A stretch of 24,060 nt of DNA, from IMG/VR virus record IMGVR_UViG_3300043403_000041, positions 1 to 24,060 of that record. The stretch is one strand, 5' to 3'. The notes under the pieces were generated by a model. It was not told where the DNA came from, did no database searches, and saw only the letters and a list, made by a program, of their open reading frames with translations. This document shows, piece after piece, positions 2,554 through 16,845 of the stretch. Both the position numbers and the translations under genes were made by a program. Origin of the DNA: a virus. Each line of letters starts with the position of its first letter. The stretch's first letter is position 1.

Positions 2554-3201
2554 ATGCGCCTTCTCTTCGCCGCCTTGTTTGCCGTTGCCTGCTCGTCACC
2601 CGAGACACCGGAACGGGCCGACGTCGGCGCCACGGCGGGCGCTGCGGGCGCTGCGGGCTCGGCAGGGGCGTCGACCGCGGGACAAGGCGGTAAGGCCGCT
2701 GCCGGGTCGCCTGCGGTGGCTGGCGCATCGGGCGCGTCAGGCGCGGGTCAATCCGCCGCGGGCATGGCCGGTGCGGCGGGGTCGGTCGGTGGCGCGGGAA
2801 GCGCGGGCGTTGCTGGCTCGCCAGCGGGCCAAGGCGGGGCCGGTAGCGCCGGGGCTAGCGGTGGCCCGTCCGGCGCGTCAGGGGCCGGTCAGGCGGGCGC
2901 GGGGCAAGGTGGCGCGGGGTCGGCTGGGATGCCGAGCGCCGGGGCTGCGGGAGCGGGCCAGGGTGGCGCCGTTCCGTGCGTCCACGGGGTCAACTGCGGT
3001 GGGTGGCATCAGTGGGGGAACTGGGCGCCTTACCGTGACGCCAACATCAGCGGCAGCGGGTGCAAGCTGAACCCGTGCGGCGATCCGTTCTTCGTCTGCA
3101 TCTACATCGCTGGCGAAACGGCGGTGCTGTCTCACGCCGACGACGGCGGCGCGTGCCGCAAGCCGTTCAACAGCGACGGCACCGCGTGCTGCAAGCCGTA
3201 A
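2554..3201 (+). CDS. Putative lipoprotein with Gly/Ala linker and Cys-rich domain (moron)
   Basis: This 215-residue protein is the only plus-strand gene in the window. It starts MRLLFAALFAVACSS, a short hydrophobic signal with a lipobox-like AVAC, so Cys13 may be the lipidated residue; the -3 position is Ala rather than the usual Leu. Residues about 25-140 are a low-complexity Gly/Ala/Ser/Gln linker. Residues about 141-215 form a compact Cys-rich domain (PCVHGVNCGGWHQWGNW, then several more Cys up to the end TACCKP), probably disulphide bonded outside the cytoplasm. The architecture is common in Myxococcota secreted lipoproteins. Its reverse orientation inside the late operon marks it as a moron, possibly changing the lysogen's cell surface. 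No convincing Shine-Dalgarno or promoter is visible upstream. Function is unknown. Confidence 0.75.
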   Translation: MRLLFAALFAVACSSPETPERADVGATAGAAGAAGSAGASTAGQGGKAAAGSPAVAGASGASGAGQSAAGMAGAAGSVGGAGSAGVAGSPAGQGGAGSAGASGGPSGASGAGQAGAGQGGAGSAGMPSAGAAGAGQGGAVPCVHGVNCGGWHQWGNWAPYRDANISGSGCKLNPCGDPFFVCIYIAGETAVLSHADDGGACRKPFNSDGTACCKP

Positions 3202-4845
3202 CGTCCAGCCGTAGCCGCCGAGGTACGTCGCGTCTGAGTTGACGTTCGCGGGCACGAGCGGCGCCGCAGCCGCGGTCGCGTAGTACCAGGCCCGCGAGAG
3301 GCGCGGAGCCAGCGAGAGGGCGATCCCGTTGGTGGTTCGCATCGGAGAGTAAAGGCCGAACGTCTTTGCGCCGTGCGCGGTCGTGCTCGCGAAGTGGCGT
3401 TCCATCTGCACGATCAGAAGCTCCAGCGTGTTAGCCGCCGAGGCGTCGTCGCTTGCTCGCGTCGCGACCTTGACGCTCTTGTCGGGGGTCGTGTGGTAGA
3501 CGGTCGTGGCGACGCTGTTCACGTCGAGGTTCTTCGAGTGACGTTCGAGCGCGTCGGCGATCTGGTTGATGATCGCATACGCCGCTTCCTTGCTGATGTT
3601 CGTCCAGTCGATGCCGGAAGAAACCACATCGTTGCTCGCATCGGCCGCGGCGTGCGGTGCGGCGAATGCCGTCTTGATTCGGTGAGTGTTGTAGAGCGTT
3701 ACGAGATCTTCCGTCTGCGTCAGCAGCTCGGCAAGATTCTGCGGCGGCTCGGTCCACGGCATCAGGTCGCCATCGATCGCGGCAACGCCGATGCCGGGAA
3801 CGTGCGCCGTAGGGTTGTCTCCGTGCCCGCTGAGAGCGAGCCGGATGTCGCGCCACAGGTCGAGCGCCGTCTGAAGCGTCGAGCAAGCGGCGGTCGCGAC
3901 CACGGAACCTCCATCGGCCGCGCCGTGAACGGCGCCAGCGGTCAAGATGACATGGGCGTTGAATGCAGTGCGAAGGTTGTTCAGTCGGATGATCGCAGAT
4001 GCAAGATCAACGGCTGAGCCAGCAACGGTGTTGACACCATCGGCGGCGCCGTGGAGGGCGTAGCCTGCCGACGTCTGGACGTGGTTGTGCCAAGCGGCCG
4101 AGACGATCGAAAGGGCGTTGCCGTCCGCGTAGGTAGTCGTGGCGTCAAGCCTTGCGACCGTCGCCTCGTACAGATTCGCCGACGTCTTCTTCCAGTCCGC
4201 CAACACCCGCGCCACATCGCGACTCGACGCGGCCATCTTGGCCAGCGGCGTGCCCGCCGGAACCAGCTTGATGCGCTCGGGGTCGAGCAGGTGCATCGTG
4301 TCGCCGTACGTGCGGATCGTGAGCGTCGCTGTGTGCGGCGCGACGCCAAACACGCGCGACTTCTCTTCGTAGACGTAGAACGTCGCGGTGTCGGTCGGCG
4401 CTTGGCCGATGCCGCCAGCGTAGGCAGGCAGGGCCGCTTCTTCGTTGTCGGTCTCGGCGAGCTCGCCCGCCGCGGGGATGTTGCCACCGAAGCGCGGGAG
4501 GAACTTGTAGTCGCTGACGTCGTAGACCTCGAGCGTGTATAGACCGGGAACGTCAGGCTCGAACGATGCCCCGCGCGCCGTCGCGTCGAGTCGCAGGCTC
4601 TCGCGGGTCGTGTTGGTGTCGAGCGTGCCGCCGTAGGCCGACAGCGTGCCAGCACGGTACTGTTGCAGCTCGTCATACTGGTCGAGCGTGGGCAGCTTGG
4701 ACGTTGCGGGCCCGGTGCGGATGTAGAACCGCAACGCAGGCGTGATGGTCGCGGTCTGCACCGCTGTCGGCGTGCCGGTGATCGTGATCTCGACCTTCGT
4801 GGCGACGGCGCCGACGTTGGGCGAGGTGTTGATCGTGAGAGCCAT
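2878..4845 (-). CDS. Tail-fibre-like protein with His-rich repeat modules; 3' end antisense to lipoprotein
   Basis: The frame encodes 655 residues and starts right after the previous stop (TAAATG). Residues 1-200 look like beta-sandwich domains. Residues about 250-500 contain recurring helical modules with a His-(G/A)-A-A-D pattern: HGAADGVNTV at 265, HGAADGGSVV at 307, HAAADASNDV at 398 and the weaker HTTPDKSVKV at 451, with further paired His residues between them (296-298, 341, 348, 388, 436, 484). It is probably a tail fibre or baseplate appendage. From residue about 550 (below 3201) the frame runs antisense through the plus-strand lipoprotein gene. The residues become Arg/Ala-rich and look non-native, so the genuine conserved part is about 3202-4845. 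Confidence 0.7.
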   Translation of the reverse strand: MALTINTSPNVGAVATKVEITITGTPTAVQTATITPALRFYIRTGPATSKLPTLDQYDELQQYRAGTLSAYGGTLDTNTTRESLRLDATARGASFEPDVPGLYTLEVYDVSDYKFLPRFGGNIPAAGELAETDNEEAALPAYAGGIGQAPTDTATFYVYEEKSRVFGVAPHTATLTIRTYGDTMHLLDPERIKLVPAGTPLAKMAASSRDVARVLADWKKTSANLYEATVARLDATTTYADGNALSIVSAAWHNHVQTSAGYALHGAADGVNTVAGSAVDLASAIIRLNNLRTAFNAHVILTAGAVHGAADGGSVVATAACSTLQTALDLWRDIRLALSGHGDNPTAHVPGIGVAAIDGDLMPWTEPPQNLAELLTQTEDLVTLYNTHRIKTAFAAPHAAADASNDVVSSGIDWTNISKEAAYAIINQIADALERHSKNLDVNSVATTVYHTTPDKSVKVATRASDDASAANTLELLIVQMERHFASTTAHGAKTFGLYSPMRTTNGIALSLAPRLSRAWYYATAAAAPLVPANVNSDATYLGGYGWTLRLAARGAVAVERLAARAAVVGVRQHRRFASDVDADEERIAARVQLAPAAADVGVTVRRPVPPLMPPTAVDPVDARNGATLARSRSPGARHPSRPRATLPRARLTGP

Positions 4846-8797: not shown

Positions 8798-9112
8798 TCA
8801 GATCAGGTCGAGAGGGCAGGCGGGCAACGACGGAAGTTTGAAACCGGGAAGCTTGGGCGGAAGGCTGATGCTCGGGAGCGAGGGCAGGCCGACGCCGGGG
8901 ATGCGCAGGCTGAAGCTCGGCAACGACGGCAGCTTGAAGCCCGGAAGCTTCGGAGGGAGCGAGATCGAAGGCAGGCTCGGCAGGGCGATGCCAGGCAGTC
9001 GCAACGAGAACGACGGCAGCAACGGAAGCTTGAAACCGGGCAGCTTCGGGGGCAGCGCAATCGATGGCAACGAGGGCAGGCCAATGCCTGGGATGCGGCA
9101 GCGCGTCGCCAT
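8798..9112 (-). CDS. Leu/Pro repeat protein of the spike region
   Basis: This 104-residue protein is almost entirely three tandem 32-residue repeats at residues 6-37, 38-69 and 70-97 (the last shortened). Each contains RIPGIGLPSLPSI, then LPPKLPGFKLP, then LPSFSL. Nearly every second or third residue is Pro and the spacing (LPxLP, LPPKLP) suggests an extended rod or polyproline-type fold, not a globular enzyme. Its ATG overlaps the spike stop (TGATG) and it ends one base before the gpW start. A role as spike-tip, needle or hub-binding rod is inferred from position. No known domain was recognised. The alternate frames also stay open through the repeat, but only this frame has the coupled start. 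Confidence 0.75.
   Translation of the reverse strand: MATRCRIPGIGLPSLPSIALPPKLPGFKLPLLPSFSLRLPGIALPSLPSISLPPKLPGFKLPSLPSFSLRIPGVGLPSLPSISLPPKLPGFKLPSLPACPLDLI
8812..9097. repeat. Three tandem 96-bp repeats encoding Leu/Pro modules
   Basis: The DNA behind residues 6-101 of the Leu/Pro protein consists of three approximate 96-bp direct repeats. The third is shortened and diverges at the end. The copies differ at several positions, many of them synonymous or conservative (IPGIG, LPGIA, IPGVG), so the array is older than the perfect 42-bp array at the left edge. Confidence 0.85.
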
Positions 9113-11951: not shown

Positions 11952-14228
11952 TCAGCCGCCCGGAGGAAGTTGCGCCGCTGGGCCTTGACCCGGTGCGCCG
12001 CGGATGTCGGCCGCGTTGGTGACGATGACGTTCATCACTTGGCCCGCCATGTCCATCTTGGTCGGCTTGGCCATCGCAGCGTCGAGTCTGCCGAGAGCGT
12101 CCAGCAACGCGGGGTTGTCTTGCGATGCCTCTTGGGCACCGTTGACGCCCTGGAAGATTCCGCGGGCCATCGCGACCGGTGGAAGCATGGACAGCGCGTC
12201 ACCAGCCGAAGGAAGCTGGCCCTTTGAAAGCGAGTTGTACGTGCCGCGAAAGCCAGCCGTGAGTCCGTCGAGTGCCGGGTCTGCGCCGGTGCTTTCCATC
12301 ATCTGCACCTTGAGAGCGTCGGCCCGCTTGCGGTCTTCGGCTGTTGCGGTGCCGTTGCCGAACTTCTGTGAAAGGTTGATCGCCTCGGATGCCATCGCGG
12401 TTTTACCGTCGCGCAGTCCGTCAAGTTCTTTCTCGTACTGTCCAGCGGCGACAGCCCCAGCGGCGACACCGGCCACCGCGGCGAGTGCGACGCCGCCAAT
12501 CATGCCAGCCTTGCCGCCCGCCCCACCAACACCGCCCGGTGCGCCGCCATTCACATTGACGACGCCAGCGTTGACCGTGGCGGTCGCGGTTTTGAAGATG
12601 CTGTCGAGCAACCCCGAGCCGAGCCGACCGATGAGCGCTTGCGCGCCACCAGCCGCCGCGCCGAGCGCAAGGATTGAAGCCGCCGCGGTCTTGGGTGACT
12701 CGGTCGCGAACTTCGTCACGCTGATGATGGCTTCCGACAGCTTCGCAAACTCTGGGATGGCCTTCGCCAACACAGGCATCAGCTCGTCGCTCATCTTGGC
12801 GCTGAACTGTTCCATTGAAACCGCGATCTTTTTCGACGCGGTGTCCATGATGGTGGCGGCTTCTTGCTGGACCTCGGCCTGCGTCATCGACGTTTCCTCG
12901 AAGCCCGAAACCATCTTCTTCATGGCCTCGGCGCCGCCCTTCTTGCCGCCGCCCGACTTCCACTCGTTCAGCATCTTGCCAAACAGTGCTTGCGATTGCA
13001 TGCCGAAGGCCGGATCGATCTTGGTGACGTCTCCGTTGGTCTTGTTGAAGATGTCCGCCATCTGCTCGGTCGCGTCGATGCGCTCGACCTCGCCCTTGGC
13101 GTTCTTGCGGGTGGTCTTCACACCCATCTTCTTGATCACTGCCTCGTGAGAGCCGAGGTCGTTGTAGAGGTTGCGCGCCGCCGTGACTGCGTCGTCTGCG
13201 TTCTTTGCGCCGCCCGCTCTCGCAAGCTGGATGTACGCCGACGCTTGGCGCGCCCGGTGCTCGCCACTGCCCTCGAAACTCCCGGCCTGGTTCGCGCCCA
13301 TGACGGCACCAACACCAGCGGCCATGTCGCGGCTATTGATGTTGCCCTTTTTGCCAGCAGCGGCGATCGACCGCATGATCTCCATTTGCTTCTTGGAGTC
13401 GGTGATCCCGTTGTTCGTCATCTCCGCAGAGATGAGCGCCCAATCTTCCATCTTTGCGCCGGTCGCGACGCTGAGCTGAGACACTTCCTCAAGGCTCCCG
13501 AGGAACGCATCAAGGCCCGCTTTGCCGCCGCCAGAACCGGCCGCGACGCCCATCGCGTCGATGACACTCCCGGCGCTGATGCCAGTCTTTCCGGCGACGC
13601 CCTGCGCCTGCTTGACGATCGCGCCGGTGTCCATGAAGGCCGCGCCCTTCTCGTGCACGTCGGCCGCGAGGGTCGCCGCCTTCGAGTCGAGGTCAATGCG
13701 ACCCTTCACGGCCTCGATGATTCCAGCCGTGCCCACTGCGCCGCCCACAATGCCCCCGACAACCGCCCCGGCACCAAGAACGCGACGGACACCGCTACCG
13801 GCGCCCTCGACTCCAGCACGGCCCATCGCCGCGCCACCGTGCGCGCGGTCGATCTTGGACGCCTCGGAAGCCGCGCGCCGCTGTGCGCTGGCCCTCTCTC
13901 GGCCCTCTTTGGCAATGAGCGCCGACCGCTCGCGCGACGCCGCCTTTTCGATTGCGACCTGTGCCTTCGCCTCGGCAGCTGTCGCCGCCGTCGCTTGCTT
14001 CGCCGCATCCTTCACAGCGCCCGCAGCCGCCTTCGCCGCCGCAATCTTCGCCGCGGTCGCTTGCTTGGCCAACGCCATGCTCGCCTGTGCCGCCCTGCGC
14101 TCTTCCGCAAGGCCAGCCGCTGCGCCTTCCTTCGCGGCCTTCTTGGCCTCGGCGACGATGCCACGGAGCGACCGAGCGACCGCGGACGGATCACCGATCC
14201 GAAAGTCGATCTTGACGGTTGCGGCCAT
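11952..14228 (-). CDS. Tail tape measure protein
   Basis: This 758-residue protein sets tail length by spanning the tail lumen. Residues about 15-140 are Ala, Lys and Glu-rich coiled coil. A Gly-rich hydrophobic region (AGAVVGGIVGGAVGTAGIIE) lies at about 152-171. The central section (AGSVIDAMGVAAGSGGGKAG, LISAEMTNNGITDSKK, RDMAAGVGAVMGANQAGSFE) resembles the TP901-type tape measure core. The C-terminal third again has hydrophobic and helical stretches (GGVALAAVAGVAAGAVAAGQ). By the usual rule of about 0.15 nm per residue, the tail would be near 110 nm. The ATG at 14228 has no clear ribosome site and follows the end of the predicted frameshift frame by eight bases. Confidence 0.9.
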   Translation of the reverse strand: MAATVKIDFRIGDPSAVARSLRGIVAEAKKAAKEGAAAGLAEERRAAQASMALAKQATAAKIAAAKAAAGAVKDAAKQATAATAAEAKAQVAIEKAASRERSALIAKEGRERASAQRRAASEASKIDRAHGGAAMGRAGVEGAGSGVRRVLGAGAVVGGIVGGAVGTAGIIEAVKGRIDLDSKAATLAADVHEKGAAFMDTGAIVKQAQGVAGKTGISAGSVIDAMGVAAGSGGGKAGLDAFLGSLEEVSQLSVATGAKMEDWALISAEMTNNGITDSKKQMEIMRSIAAAGKKGNINSRDMAAGVGAVMGANQAGSFEGSGEHRARQASAYIQLARAGGAKNADDAVTAARNLYNDLGSHEAVIKKMGVKTTRKNAKGEVERIDATEQMADIFNKTNGDVTKIDPAFGMQSQALFGKMLNEWKSGGGKKGGAEAMKKMVSGFEETSMTQAEVQQEAATIMDTASKKIAVSMEQFSAKMSDELMPVLAKAIPEFAKLSEAIISVTKFATESPKTAAASILALGAAAGGAQALIGRLGSGLLDSIFKTATATVNAGVVNVNGGAPGGVGGAGGKAGMIGGVALAAVAGVAAGAVAAGQYEKELDGLRDGKTAMASEAINLSQKFGNGTATAEDRKRADALKVQMMESTGADPALDGLTAGFRGTYNSLSKGQLPSAGDALSMLPPVAMARGIFQGVNGAQEASQDNPALLDALGRLDAAMAKPTKMDMAGQVMNVIVTNAADIRGAPGQGPAAQLPPGG

Positions 14229-14236
14229 GGTCTAGG

Positions 14237-14928
14237 TCAGTCGTTTGGAAACATCTTGCGCACGGCCTTCATGGTCCCGAGCACAAGGATAAAGTCGGTG
14301 CTTGGCCAGTCGTAAGCCGGGCCTGTTCGGCCATAGACTTCGCGCAGAACTCGCACAGGGTCTCCAGCTGCCCGCGCGAGAAGTACGCGAAAGGGAACTC
14401 GCCGACCCCCGACGCGATCACATCAACCCACGCGCGCAACTCAGACTCTGAGAGGTCCGAAAGATTCGGATGAGTGCGGTCCACCATCGACGCGTAAGCG
14501 TTCAACAGCACACCCAACTCCTGCGGTGTGCAGTACTGCCGCACCTCAAGGATCCCGTGCTCGAAGAACGGGCGGTCTTGGCCGTTCTCTCCCGGTTCAG
14601 GATGGCGACAAGCAACCGCCAAGATCTCAGCACAGCGCGTGTTGTGCTCGAGCTCCTCGGGACGCCAAGGCAAAGCCTCGTCACCTATGGACGCCAAAAG
14701 GCGGGCTGTCTCACGTCTCGCGTTTGCGAGAGCGCTTTCAAGCTCGCCTTCTGTCAGCGCCCGCAGGCGCACTTGACACACAACTTTCCCCGCCTCGTCG
14801 AAGCGCGGGTAGTCGACCAGGGCGCTTTGGGGGCGCCCTCGGTCTATGAGTCTCCGAACCAGCTCGGAGGGTGGAACGTCGCGCGGTGGGGCGTTTCCTC
14901 CCCCCTGCCTCGCGAGCGGGTTTGTCAC
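14237..14928 (-). CDS. Predicted -1 frameshift product of the tail assembly chaperone
   Basis: A -1 slip at the heptamer CCCTTTC (14395 to 14389) would join the first 180 residues of the chaperone to about 50 residues in the -1 frame, giving about 230 residues and ending at TGA 14239-14237, just before the tape measure ATG. The extension ends with convincing protein-like sequence: YGRTGPAYDWPSTDFILVLG and then TMKAVRKMFPND. By hand count, 24 of its last 33 codons end in G or C, against 13 of 23 for the competing zero frame. Lambda G/GT and P2 E/E' use the same plan. The exact slip point is inferred. Confidence 0.6.
14269..14928 (-). CDS. Tail assembly chaperone (short, zero-frame product)
   Basis: This 219-residue protein lies between the tube and the tape measure genes, the invariable place of the tail assembly chaperone (lambda G, Mu gp41, P2 E). 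The N-terminal half has CQVRLRALTEGELESALANA, the usual VR.Lt..El..A pattern for this class. The start overlaps the tube stop as ATGA. After residue 180 a canonical slippery heptamer occurs in the right phase, and the -1 frame stays open past the zero-frame stop. The zero-frame C-terminus (ending PTLSLCSGP) has weaker codon bias in its last 23 codons. It probably works with a longer frameshift product to load the tape measure. Confidence 0.82.
   Translation of the reverse strand: MTNPLARQGGGNAPPRDVPPSELVRRLIDRGRPQSALVDYPRFDEAGKVVCQVRLRALTEGELESALANARRETARLLASIGDEALPWRPEELEHNTRCAEILAVACRHPEPGENGQDRPFFEHGILEVRQYCTPQELGVLLNAYASMVDRTHPNLSDLSESELRAWVDVIASGVGEFPFAYFSRGQLETLCEFCAKSMAEQARLTTGQAPTLSLCSGP
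14389..14395 (-). promoter_or_regulatory. Candidate -1 ribosomal slippery heptamer
   Basis: On the minus strand this reads C CCT TTC in the chaperone frame, an X XXY YYZ heptamer. It is the only such heptamer I find in the zero-frame codons from here to the zero-frame stop. The -1 frame has no stop between here and 14239. I see no strong downstream stem by eye. Confidence 0.55.
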
Positions 14929-15302
14929 AACGTCGACTCGGTGACTGGCACACCGACGAAGGTGGCCTCGAAGCTTGCCGGGTTGGCCATCGACAACGAC
15001 TCTTTGGCGGTCATCAGGTAGCCCTTGCAGGTCACCTTTTTGCCGCCGCGGAAGTACACGACCTCGACCTCTTCGTTGTCGAGCAGCTTGTCGATGTACG
15101 CGAACTCGATACCGCTTCGGGGGATTGCAGACTTGATGGTCATCTTGGTCATGGCCGCGCCAGGCGAGATGCCCGCGAAGCCTTTGGCCGTGATGATCTC
15201 GCTGTTCTTCGCGTCGTGGTCGACGTCGAACGATTCGATCTCTGCCAGCGCGTTCTTGTTCAGAAACAGAGCGCCAGCGTTCTCGTAAAGTTGGTTTGCC
15301 AT
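14925..15302 (-). CDS. Tail tube protein (Mu gpM-like)
   Basis: This 125-residue protein forms the inner tail tube. It starts MANQLYENAGALFLNKNALA, then EIESFDVDHDAKNSEIITAK, the usual opening of Mu-type tube proteins in which a short strand is followed by a G..S.GA segment (FAGISPGAAM). The C-terminal strands (EEVEVVYFRGGKKVTCKGYL) end at VPVTESTL. It sits directly after the sheath, as in Mu L-M. A GAAGGGA ribosome site six bases before ATG 15302 suggests high expression, as a tube protein requires. Confidence 0.87.
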   Translation of the reverse strand: MANQLYENAGALFLNKNALAEIESFDVDHDAKNSEIITAKGFAGISPGAAMTKMTIKSAIPRSGIEFAYIDKLLDNEEVEVVYFRGGKKVTCKGYLMTAKESLSMANPASFEATFVGVPVTESTL

Positions 15303-15312
15303 GGTGTTCCCT

Positions 15313-16845
15313 TCACGCCGAAGCGCTGGACTCCTTCACAAGCAGTGCGTGCTGGTGAAGCATCACGGCCGAGTAGATCGGGTTGGAGATGTTCATCCGG
15401 CTGGTGACAGTCGGGTCCGCGCCGCACTGGATGGCGGCGATCATCGTGTCGAGCTTGCCGGGGTCGAGCCAGCCGCGATCGACGCTCGAGTTGACCTCGG
15501 ACTCGACCGCGGCCTTGACGCGGTTGGGCGTCGCGAACTCAGCGCGCGGTTGCTTGCTGGGGTTCGCCGGGTCGGTCGTGATCTTAGTCCAAGGCGACGA
15601 CGCCAGCGACGCGACGAGGTTGTCCGTGTGCGCGTCGGCGACGGTCACCACAGACGAATCGCGCACGCGGTAGTCGAAGTTCGCGCCGTTCTTGTGGTAG
15701 CTCGTGACAGACCGCACGATGTACGGCTGACCACCCTGACTCACGCCGATGGCCGTGATGCCGTTGTTGAGCATCGACTTAATCTCAGTCGTGGTCGGGA
15801 TCGCCGAGTCGTTGTAGGGCCGCTGAAGCGGGAACGCCTGGCCGGTCTTCGTGCCGAAGCTGTCGAAGTTGAAGGCCGGGTCTGAGACTTCGTTCTTGCT
15901 CATCACAGCGGCGCACGTCGCGCCAACGAGCCAGCACGGCTCGGGGTTCTCTTCGCTGTTGCAGATGCGCTCGCGAGCCTGGTTCTGGCTGAGGGCCAGC
16001 GTGGTCGCGGCCGATGGCGTGAGACACGTTCCCACAACCACCTTCTGACGGAAGCCCGTCGACGGCTCGGCGAGCGTGTTGACCTGCGCCATCAGCGCGT
16101 CGAGCGGCGCGTCGAGTTGAACGCACGGGACAATGTAGTCGTAATCGGTGCCCGCGATGGTCGCGAGAGCAGCGGTGTAGGAGATGGCACCAGCGCCGAC
16201 GACAGCGGCACCAACACCGGACGATCCGAACTGGATGTCTGACGTAGGGGAAACTGTCGTGGTGATGCCGGTTCCGATCATCTGCGCGCGAATGCGGAGG
16301 CTCAGGAACTCGGAACCCATGACGCGAGCGGTACACGTCACAACGCCGAGCGCCGACGTGGCCGTGACGGGCAGATCTGTTTGGTTGTTGATTGCCGCCG
16401 CGACAGCCGCCGCGATGACCGTTACGCTGTCACCAGACGCGACAGACGCCTCGATGGTGCGGCCTGCCAGCACGACGCGAGCAACTCCCGCTGCTGCCGC
16501 GCTGGTCACATAGGTGATGACCTCGACCGCAGCCGTACCCGTCGCCGCCGTGGGGCAGATGACGTACACCTGTGCGCTCTTGTTGAGCGACATGAAGCGC
16601 GCCGCTGCCTGGTGGGCAACCGAACCCGTGCCGCAGTAGGTGATCGCGTCGGCTTCGTCGTTCAGAGGGCCGACAACCTGCGTGTCGACAGTGATCGAAC
16701 CGGCCGAGGTCTTCGGCCCCATGATCAGGACCTTCTTCGCGGAGAAGTCGCCGCTCGATTGCCCTTGGGCGAAGCGGACCTCAGCGTAGACACCGGGGAT
16801 GGGATTGGAGGCGTCGAGCCCCGTGAGGGATAGTGCGAGAGTCAT
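15313..16845 (-). CDS. Tail sheath protein (Mu gpL-like)
   Basis: This 510-residue contractile sheath protein identifies the phage as a myovirus type. The N-terminal IPGVYAEVRFAQGQSS and KKVLIMGPKTSAGSITVDTQ are typical of Mu-like sheaths. The variable middle domain (about residues 110-200) is Ala- and Thr-rich. The C-terminal half has YDYIVPCVQLDAPLDALMAQ, then LKNGANFDYRVRDSSVV-like strands and a long helix before the end (NRVKAAVESEVNSSVDRGWL). A strong GGAGG ribosome site lies within the end of the DUF2635 gene, about nine bases before ATG 16845. The product is needed in large amounts. Confidence 0.92.
   Translation of the reverse strand: MTLALSLTGLDASNPIPGVYAEVRFAQGQSSGDFSAKKVLIMGPKTSAGSITVDTQVVGPLNDEADAITYCGTGSVAHQAAARFMSLNKSAQVYVICPTAATGTAAVEVITYVTSAAAAGVARVVLAGRTIEASVASGDSVTVIAAAVAAAINNQTDLPVTATSALGVVTCTARVMGSEFLSLRIRAQMIGTGITTTVSPTSDIQFGSSGVGAAVVGAGAISYTAALATIAGTDYDYIVPCVQLDAPLDALMAQVNTLAEPSTGFRQKVVVGTCLTPSAATTLALSQNQARERICNSEENPEPCWLVGATCAAVMSKNEVSDPAFNFDSFGTKTGQAFPLQRPYNDSAIPTTTEIKSMLNNGITAIGVSQGGQPYIVRSVTSYHKNGANFDYRVRDSSVVTVADAHTDNLVASLASSPWTKITTDPANPSKQPRAEFATPNRVKAAVESEVNSSVDRGWLDPGKLDTMIAAIQCGADPTVTSRMNISNPIYSAVMLHQHALLVKESSASA

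Follow-up and report, generated by a model that had tools for sequence, protein, structure and literature searches.

In phage lambda, the gpG/gpGT chaperone gene lies between the major tail and tape measure genes, and translation shifts by -1 at an X XXY YYZ heptamer, G GGA AAG, located towards the gene's 3' end. The gpE/E' pair of P2, a phage with a contractile tail, also depends on a -1 shift in the chaperone gene, at T TTT TTG. Frameshifting in the tail chaperone gene has long been known and is widely conserved in tailed phages, and the tail assembly frameshift of Mu has been reported as -2 (Xu et al. 2004, as cited in PMC5009743 and PMC2628397). According to a review, certain tailed phages seem to manage without stimulators (PMC5009743). 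Outside phage tail genes, E. coli dnaX and IS911 have both a heptamer and an upstream Shine-Dalgarno-like element (dnaX: PMC3711429; spacing range: PMC4066793), together with 3' stem structures. In E. coli, UUN codons and heptamers in which X and Z are both pyrimidines are relatively shift-prone (PMC4066793). Sites of the C CCU UUN type are already known elsewhere: the slip site of West Nile virus, a eukaryotic RNA virus, is C CCU UUU, with an RNA structure further downstream (PMC11507841), and is of the same heptamer type as the site in the phage locus described below.

This locus lies in a 24,060-nt stretch of viral DNA, here called the window (IMG/VR record IMGVR_UViG_3300043403_000041, positions 1 to 24,060), which is a fragment of a Mu-like contractile phage (Portal_Mu, E 4e-68). 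Sequence comparison indicates that its tail assembly chaperone gene very probably contains a programmed -1 ribosomal frameshift. The features concerned, in the direction of transcription, are the following.

15313 to 16845, minus strand: tail sheath protein (PHROG 165, E 2.4e-56).
14925 to 15302, minus strand: putative tail tube protein, from its position after the sheath gene; a conserved family.
14269 to 14928, minus strand: tail assembly chaperone, zero frame, GTG start, 219 amino acids; flanked by the tail tube and tape measure genes and conserved in a 16-sequence alignment.
14404 to 14411, minus strand: G-rich stretch CGGGGGTC resembling a Shine-Dalgarno sequence, 8 nt upstream of the heptamer; may act as a stimulator, from predicted anti-Shine-Dalgarno pairing.
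14389 to 14395, minus strand: slippery heptamer C CCT TTC, in phase; CCCTTTC, CCCTTTT or CCCTTTA in 15 loci, T TTT TTA in one low-GC relative.
14269 to 14388, minus strand: overlap open and, by substitution phases, constrained in both frames.
14237 to 14389, minus strand: -1-frame extension of 50 residues, coding 14389-14240, stop TGA 14239-14237; from a 14-sequence alignment, substitution phase and predicted structure (pLDDT 93.5).
11952 to 14228, minus strand: tape measure protein (PHROG 28, tail length tape measure, E 2.8e-10).

The chaperone gene thus sits, as in lambda, between a tail tube gene (identified by position and conservation) and a tape measure gene (identified by PHROG). The putative tail tube protein has no match in Pfam or PHROGs, and the chaperone has no relevant family match in Pfam, PHROGs or NCBIfam. 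Searching INPHARED with the chaperone gave no match, and scanning genome collections with chaperone and sheath alignments found no relatives. The top fold match of the chaperone is a Gordonia phage protein annotated as a tail assembly chaperone, a weak match (E 0.014), and a fold search against the PDB returned nothing significant; the zero-frame protein is predicted to be mostly helical (AlphaFold pLDDT 69.8). The window shares with Mu its portal, its gene order and the location of the frameshift, but the frame is -1 rather than -2 and the chaperone matches no Mu chaperone family model. The conserved extension lies in the -1 frame and does not fit a Mu-type -2 shift. There is likewise no detectable sequence relation to lambda gpG/gpGT or homology to P2 gpE/E', and the window site, C CCU UUC, differs from the slip sites of both, whereas one relative of the window uses T TTT TTA. 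A literature search for CCCTTTC with phage frameshifting found nothing relevant.

The heptamer lies inside the overlap of the zero-frame and -1 ORFs. The original prediction had placed it, correctly, at 14395-14389 in the zero-frame phase of ORF 14928-14269, where it is the sole in-phase X XXY YYZ between 14395 and the zero-frame stop at 14271-14269; two more are found at the 5' end of the gene (14923 AAACCCG and 14905 GGGGGGA). Such in-phase heptamers occur at 7 of 6760 codons (0.1%) in the window's structural genes, or 0.06 expected per 60 codons, and the only in-phase CCCTTT in these genes is the one at the chaperone site. The -1 frame has no stop codon between 14424 and the TGA at 14239-14237, which ends it shortly ahead of the tape measure ATG (14228); the original prediction had likewise described it as open to 14237. 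Openness of the -1 frame was rejected as evidence for a frameshift, since a -1 frame is open for 50 codons at 47% of positions in the structural genes and by itself says nothing. The case from the window sequence alone is suggestive; its significance comes from the relatives.

Relatives were found by scanning viral contigs, using the chaperone, sheath and tail tube as queries, and 15 loci, window included, were analysed in detail. These represent about 13 distinct viruses on independent metagenome contigs, with chaperones from 79% to about 21% identical to that of the window. The comparison with homologues called for in the original prediction bore it out: C CCT TT followed by C, T or A stands at the same codons in 15/15 main-set loci, and a -1 extension of recognisable pattern (14-sequence alignment) is kept in every one. 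A continuous single frame across the site, named beforehand as the contrary observation, is seen in no relative. The -1 extension usually ends close to or at the tape measure start, and in two loci (L052 and L036) the zero frame continues past the -1 stop. The truncated locus L054 has CCCTTTA, and L057 has CCCTTTC in the second of two tandem chaperone copies. In the low-GC relative L077 the corresponding site reads T TTT TTA and the -1 extension matches, and the distant relative L056 has only T CCT TTT, which is not a full heptamer. Both L056 (3421-4621) and L057 (3427-4642) have a tandem pair of chaperone-like genes after the tail tube gene, and the slip-site region and -1 extension are present in the second gene only.

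Codon usage at the slip site, together with the T TTT TTA of L077, indicates that the heptamer is conserved more strictly than the protein sequence demands. Of the proline codons in the loci, 8-29% are CCT (counted in mechanically chosen ORFs), yet every locus has CCT at the slip site; the product of these fractions over 13 viruses is 1.7e-11, a figure that overstates their independence. At most other invariant prolines of the alignment, the codon varies or is CCG. Two loci (L051 and L036) have leucine in place of phenylalanine at the slip site, and the codon chosen is TTA, which accounts for at most 2.2% of leucine codons; the heptamer is thereby preserved. The residue preceding the slip site may be F, N, H, S, D or Y, but its codon always ends in C.

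The position of the frame change can be read from the phase of substitutions, counted in five independent pairs by zero-frame codon positions 1/2/3. Upstream of the heptamer the differences number 218/168/347; in the first 48 nt after it they number 10/26/24 (p 0.0012), and in the remainder of the overlap 20/43/22 (p 1.5e-7). Because zero-frame position 2 is position 3 of the -1 frame, -1-frame constraint starts at the heptamer. The total substitution rate is lower directly after the heptamer than upstream, as expected where both frames are in use. Stops narrow the slip site further. In L002 and L051 the -1 frame is closed by a stop 6 nt upstream of the heptamer, and in L003, L009 and L010 a stop ends the zero frame 103 nt downstream of it. 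Sequence comparison shows both the slip site and that the -1 frame is used for coding.

Past the heptamer, the window's codon bias points to the zero frame for about 16 codons, and on this basis the original prediction had allowed that the frame might change about 48 nt downstream, or that a base might be missing near 14340. Such a loss could come from sequencing or assembly error or from mutation, the true gene then being one continuous frame. Neither caveat holds up among the relatives. The -1-frame substitution pattern begins directly after the heptamer rather than at 14340, and dual coding explains the G/C-ending zero-frame codons over these 48 nt with no base missing; moreover, the same two-frame layout recurs in the independent contigs of about 13 distinct viruses, with a continuous frame in none, which makes a missing base exceedingly improbable. 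The stops alone confine the shift only to about 100 nt, which would leave room for a frame change at some other point after the heptamer and before the zero-frame stop; the conservation of the heptamer would then have a different cause. This is very unlikely, however, given that the interval in the window contains no further X XXY YYZ in phase and none is common to the relatives, that -1-frame constraint is already present in the first 48 nt, that the heptamer is constant though the residues encoded at it and ahead of it change, and that L077 carries a different heptamer at the same place.

The -1 ORF might also be a separate small gene that overlaps the chaperone gene and has its own start codon, and the window's -1 frame does contain GTG and ATG after the heptamer. 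Against a separate gene, however, the relatives share no start codon in the -1 frame: L036 has no ATG, GTG, TTG or CTG after the heptamer, L053 has only CTG at +117, and L051 has only TTG at +144 and +195. The -1 coding signal starts at the heptamer, and a separate gene would leave the rare codons kept there unexplained; we regard it as highly improbable. Heptamer, extension and substitution phase agree among the relatives on the programmed -1 frameshift originally proposed.

Programmed -1 frameshifting at this site would yield two products with 180 residues in common, followed by 39 residues in the zero frame (219 total) or 50 in the -1 frame (230 total), with base 14389 read twice in the shifted frame. 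Most ribosomes presumably stay in the zero frame and make the 219-residue protein. On a fraction of ribosomes, tRNA-Pro and tRNA-Phe on C CCU UUC would slip back one base and re-pair with CCC UUU, giving the 230-residue protein, in which a 50-residue helical domain would follow the common part. This -1 tail is predicted as three helices forming a compact domain (AlphaFold pLDDT 93.5, from the 14-sequence alignment), the first helix beginning at the second residue after the slip; a fold search of the domain against viral models found nothing significant. By analogy with lambda gpG/gpGT, the shared 180-residue part may serve to bind the tape measure protein, and tail tube subunits may be recruited by the -1 tail, which would be the rarer form. 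The efficiency of the shift, the tRNA steps, these binding roles and any help from the upstream Shine-Dalgarno-like stretch are inferred. In contrast to lambda, the window products differ mainly in C-termini of similar length (39 vs 50), about 120 nt are open in both frames, and a Shine-Dalgarno-like stretch lies upstream of the heptamer. In one virus represented by five contigs (L004-L008), there is no zero-frame stop for 699 nt after the heptamer (e.g., L006:4480-5179), as the three sufficiently long contigs show; the zero frame would there enter the tape measure gene for about 530 nt in another frame, and the unshifted product would be the longer.

The G-rich stretch of the window has a predicted anti-Shine-Dalgarno pairing energy of -9.8 kcal/mol (p 0.03 against other ORF positions), which is not significant against synonymous resampling (p 0.06). 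It fits the 6-17 nt spacing range searched for known bacterial stimulators (PMC4066793). Most relatives have a Shine-Dalgarno-like stretch, with predicted pairing that peaks sharply 8-13 nt upstream of the heptamer; at spacing 10 the mean is -8.4 kcal/mol, compared with about -1 to -2 at neighbouring positions (combined p 4e-12 relative to other positions). Synonymous-codon resampling across the relatives did not show Shine-Dalgarno selection beyond amino-acid need (combined p 0.23), and because significance is lost in this way, the stretch may be a by-product of Glu, Lys and Gly residues. It is a possible stimulator, inseparable from amino-acid constraint. Downstream of the heptamer, modelling limited to structures free of pseudoknots found no conserved RNA structure (folding z-scores -2.1 to +1.1), and the relatives' consensus, modelled with the same limit, has only a 5-bp stem with no covariation. 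In dnaX and IS911 a 3' stem accompanies the upstream element, whereas stimulation in the window is putative.

Tentatively, and with our judgment leaning somewhat to the other side, the family may use a dnaX-like -1 shift, stimulated by an internal Shine-Dalgarno-like element, that toggles between C-termini of similar length, with about 100 nt dual-coded and no long domain added (in L004-L008, the unshifted product would even be the longer). New here are the chaperone family, which is missing from Pfam, PHROGs and NCBIfam, the C CCU UUN site conserved in it, and the alternative-tail layout. The conserved tail frameshift is thereby extended to an unrecognised chaperone family of Mu-like phages that current protein-family libraries miss. 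A rule for gene callers is suggested, namely CCCTTTN ahead of a tape measure gene, and the relatives offer a natural series of varied slip sequences and Shine-Dalgarno-like elements useful for testing the control of product ratio.

Other regions of the window contain repeats. At its edge (1-190), which is also the contig edge, a 42-bp tandem repeat in 4.5 near-perfect copies lies inside a DNA methyltransferase-like ORF. A lipoprotein-like ORF rich in Ala/Gly/Ser repeats (2554-3201, plus strand) runs on the strand opposite to the structural genes and overlaps the 3' end of ORF 2878-4845. In the baseplate region, a small protein (8798-9112, minus strand) is built of repeated LPSLPSISLPPKLPGFKLP-like units.
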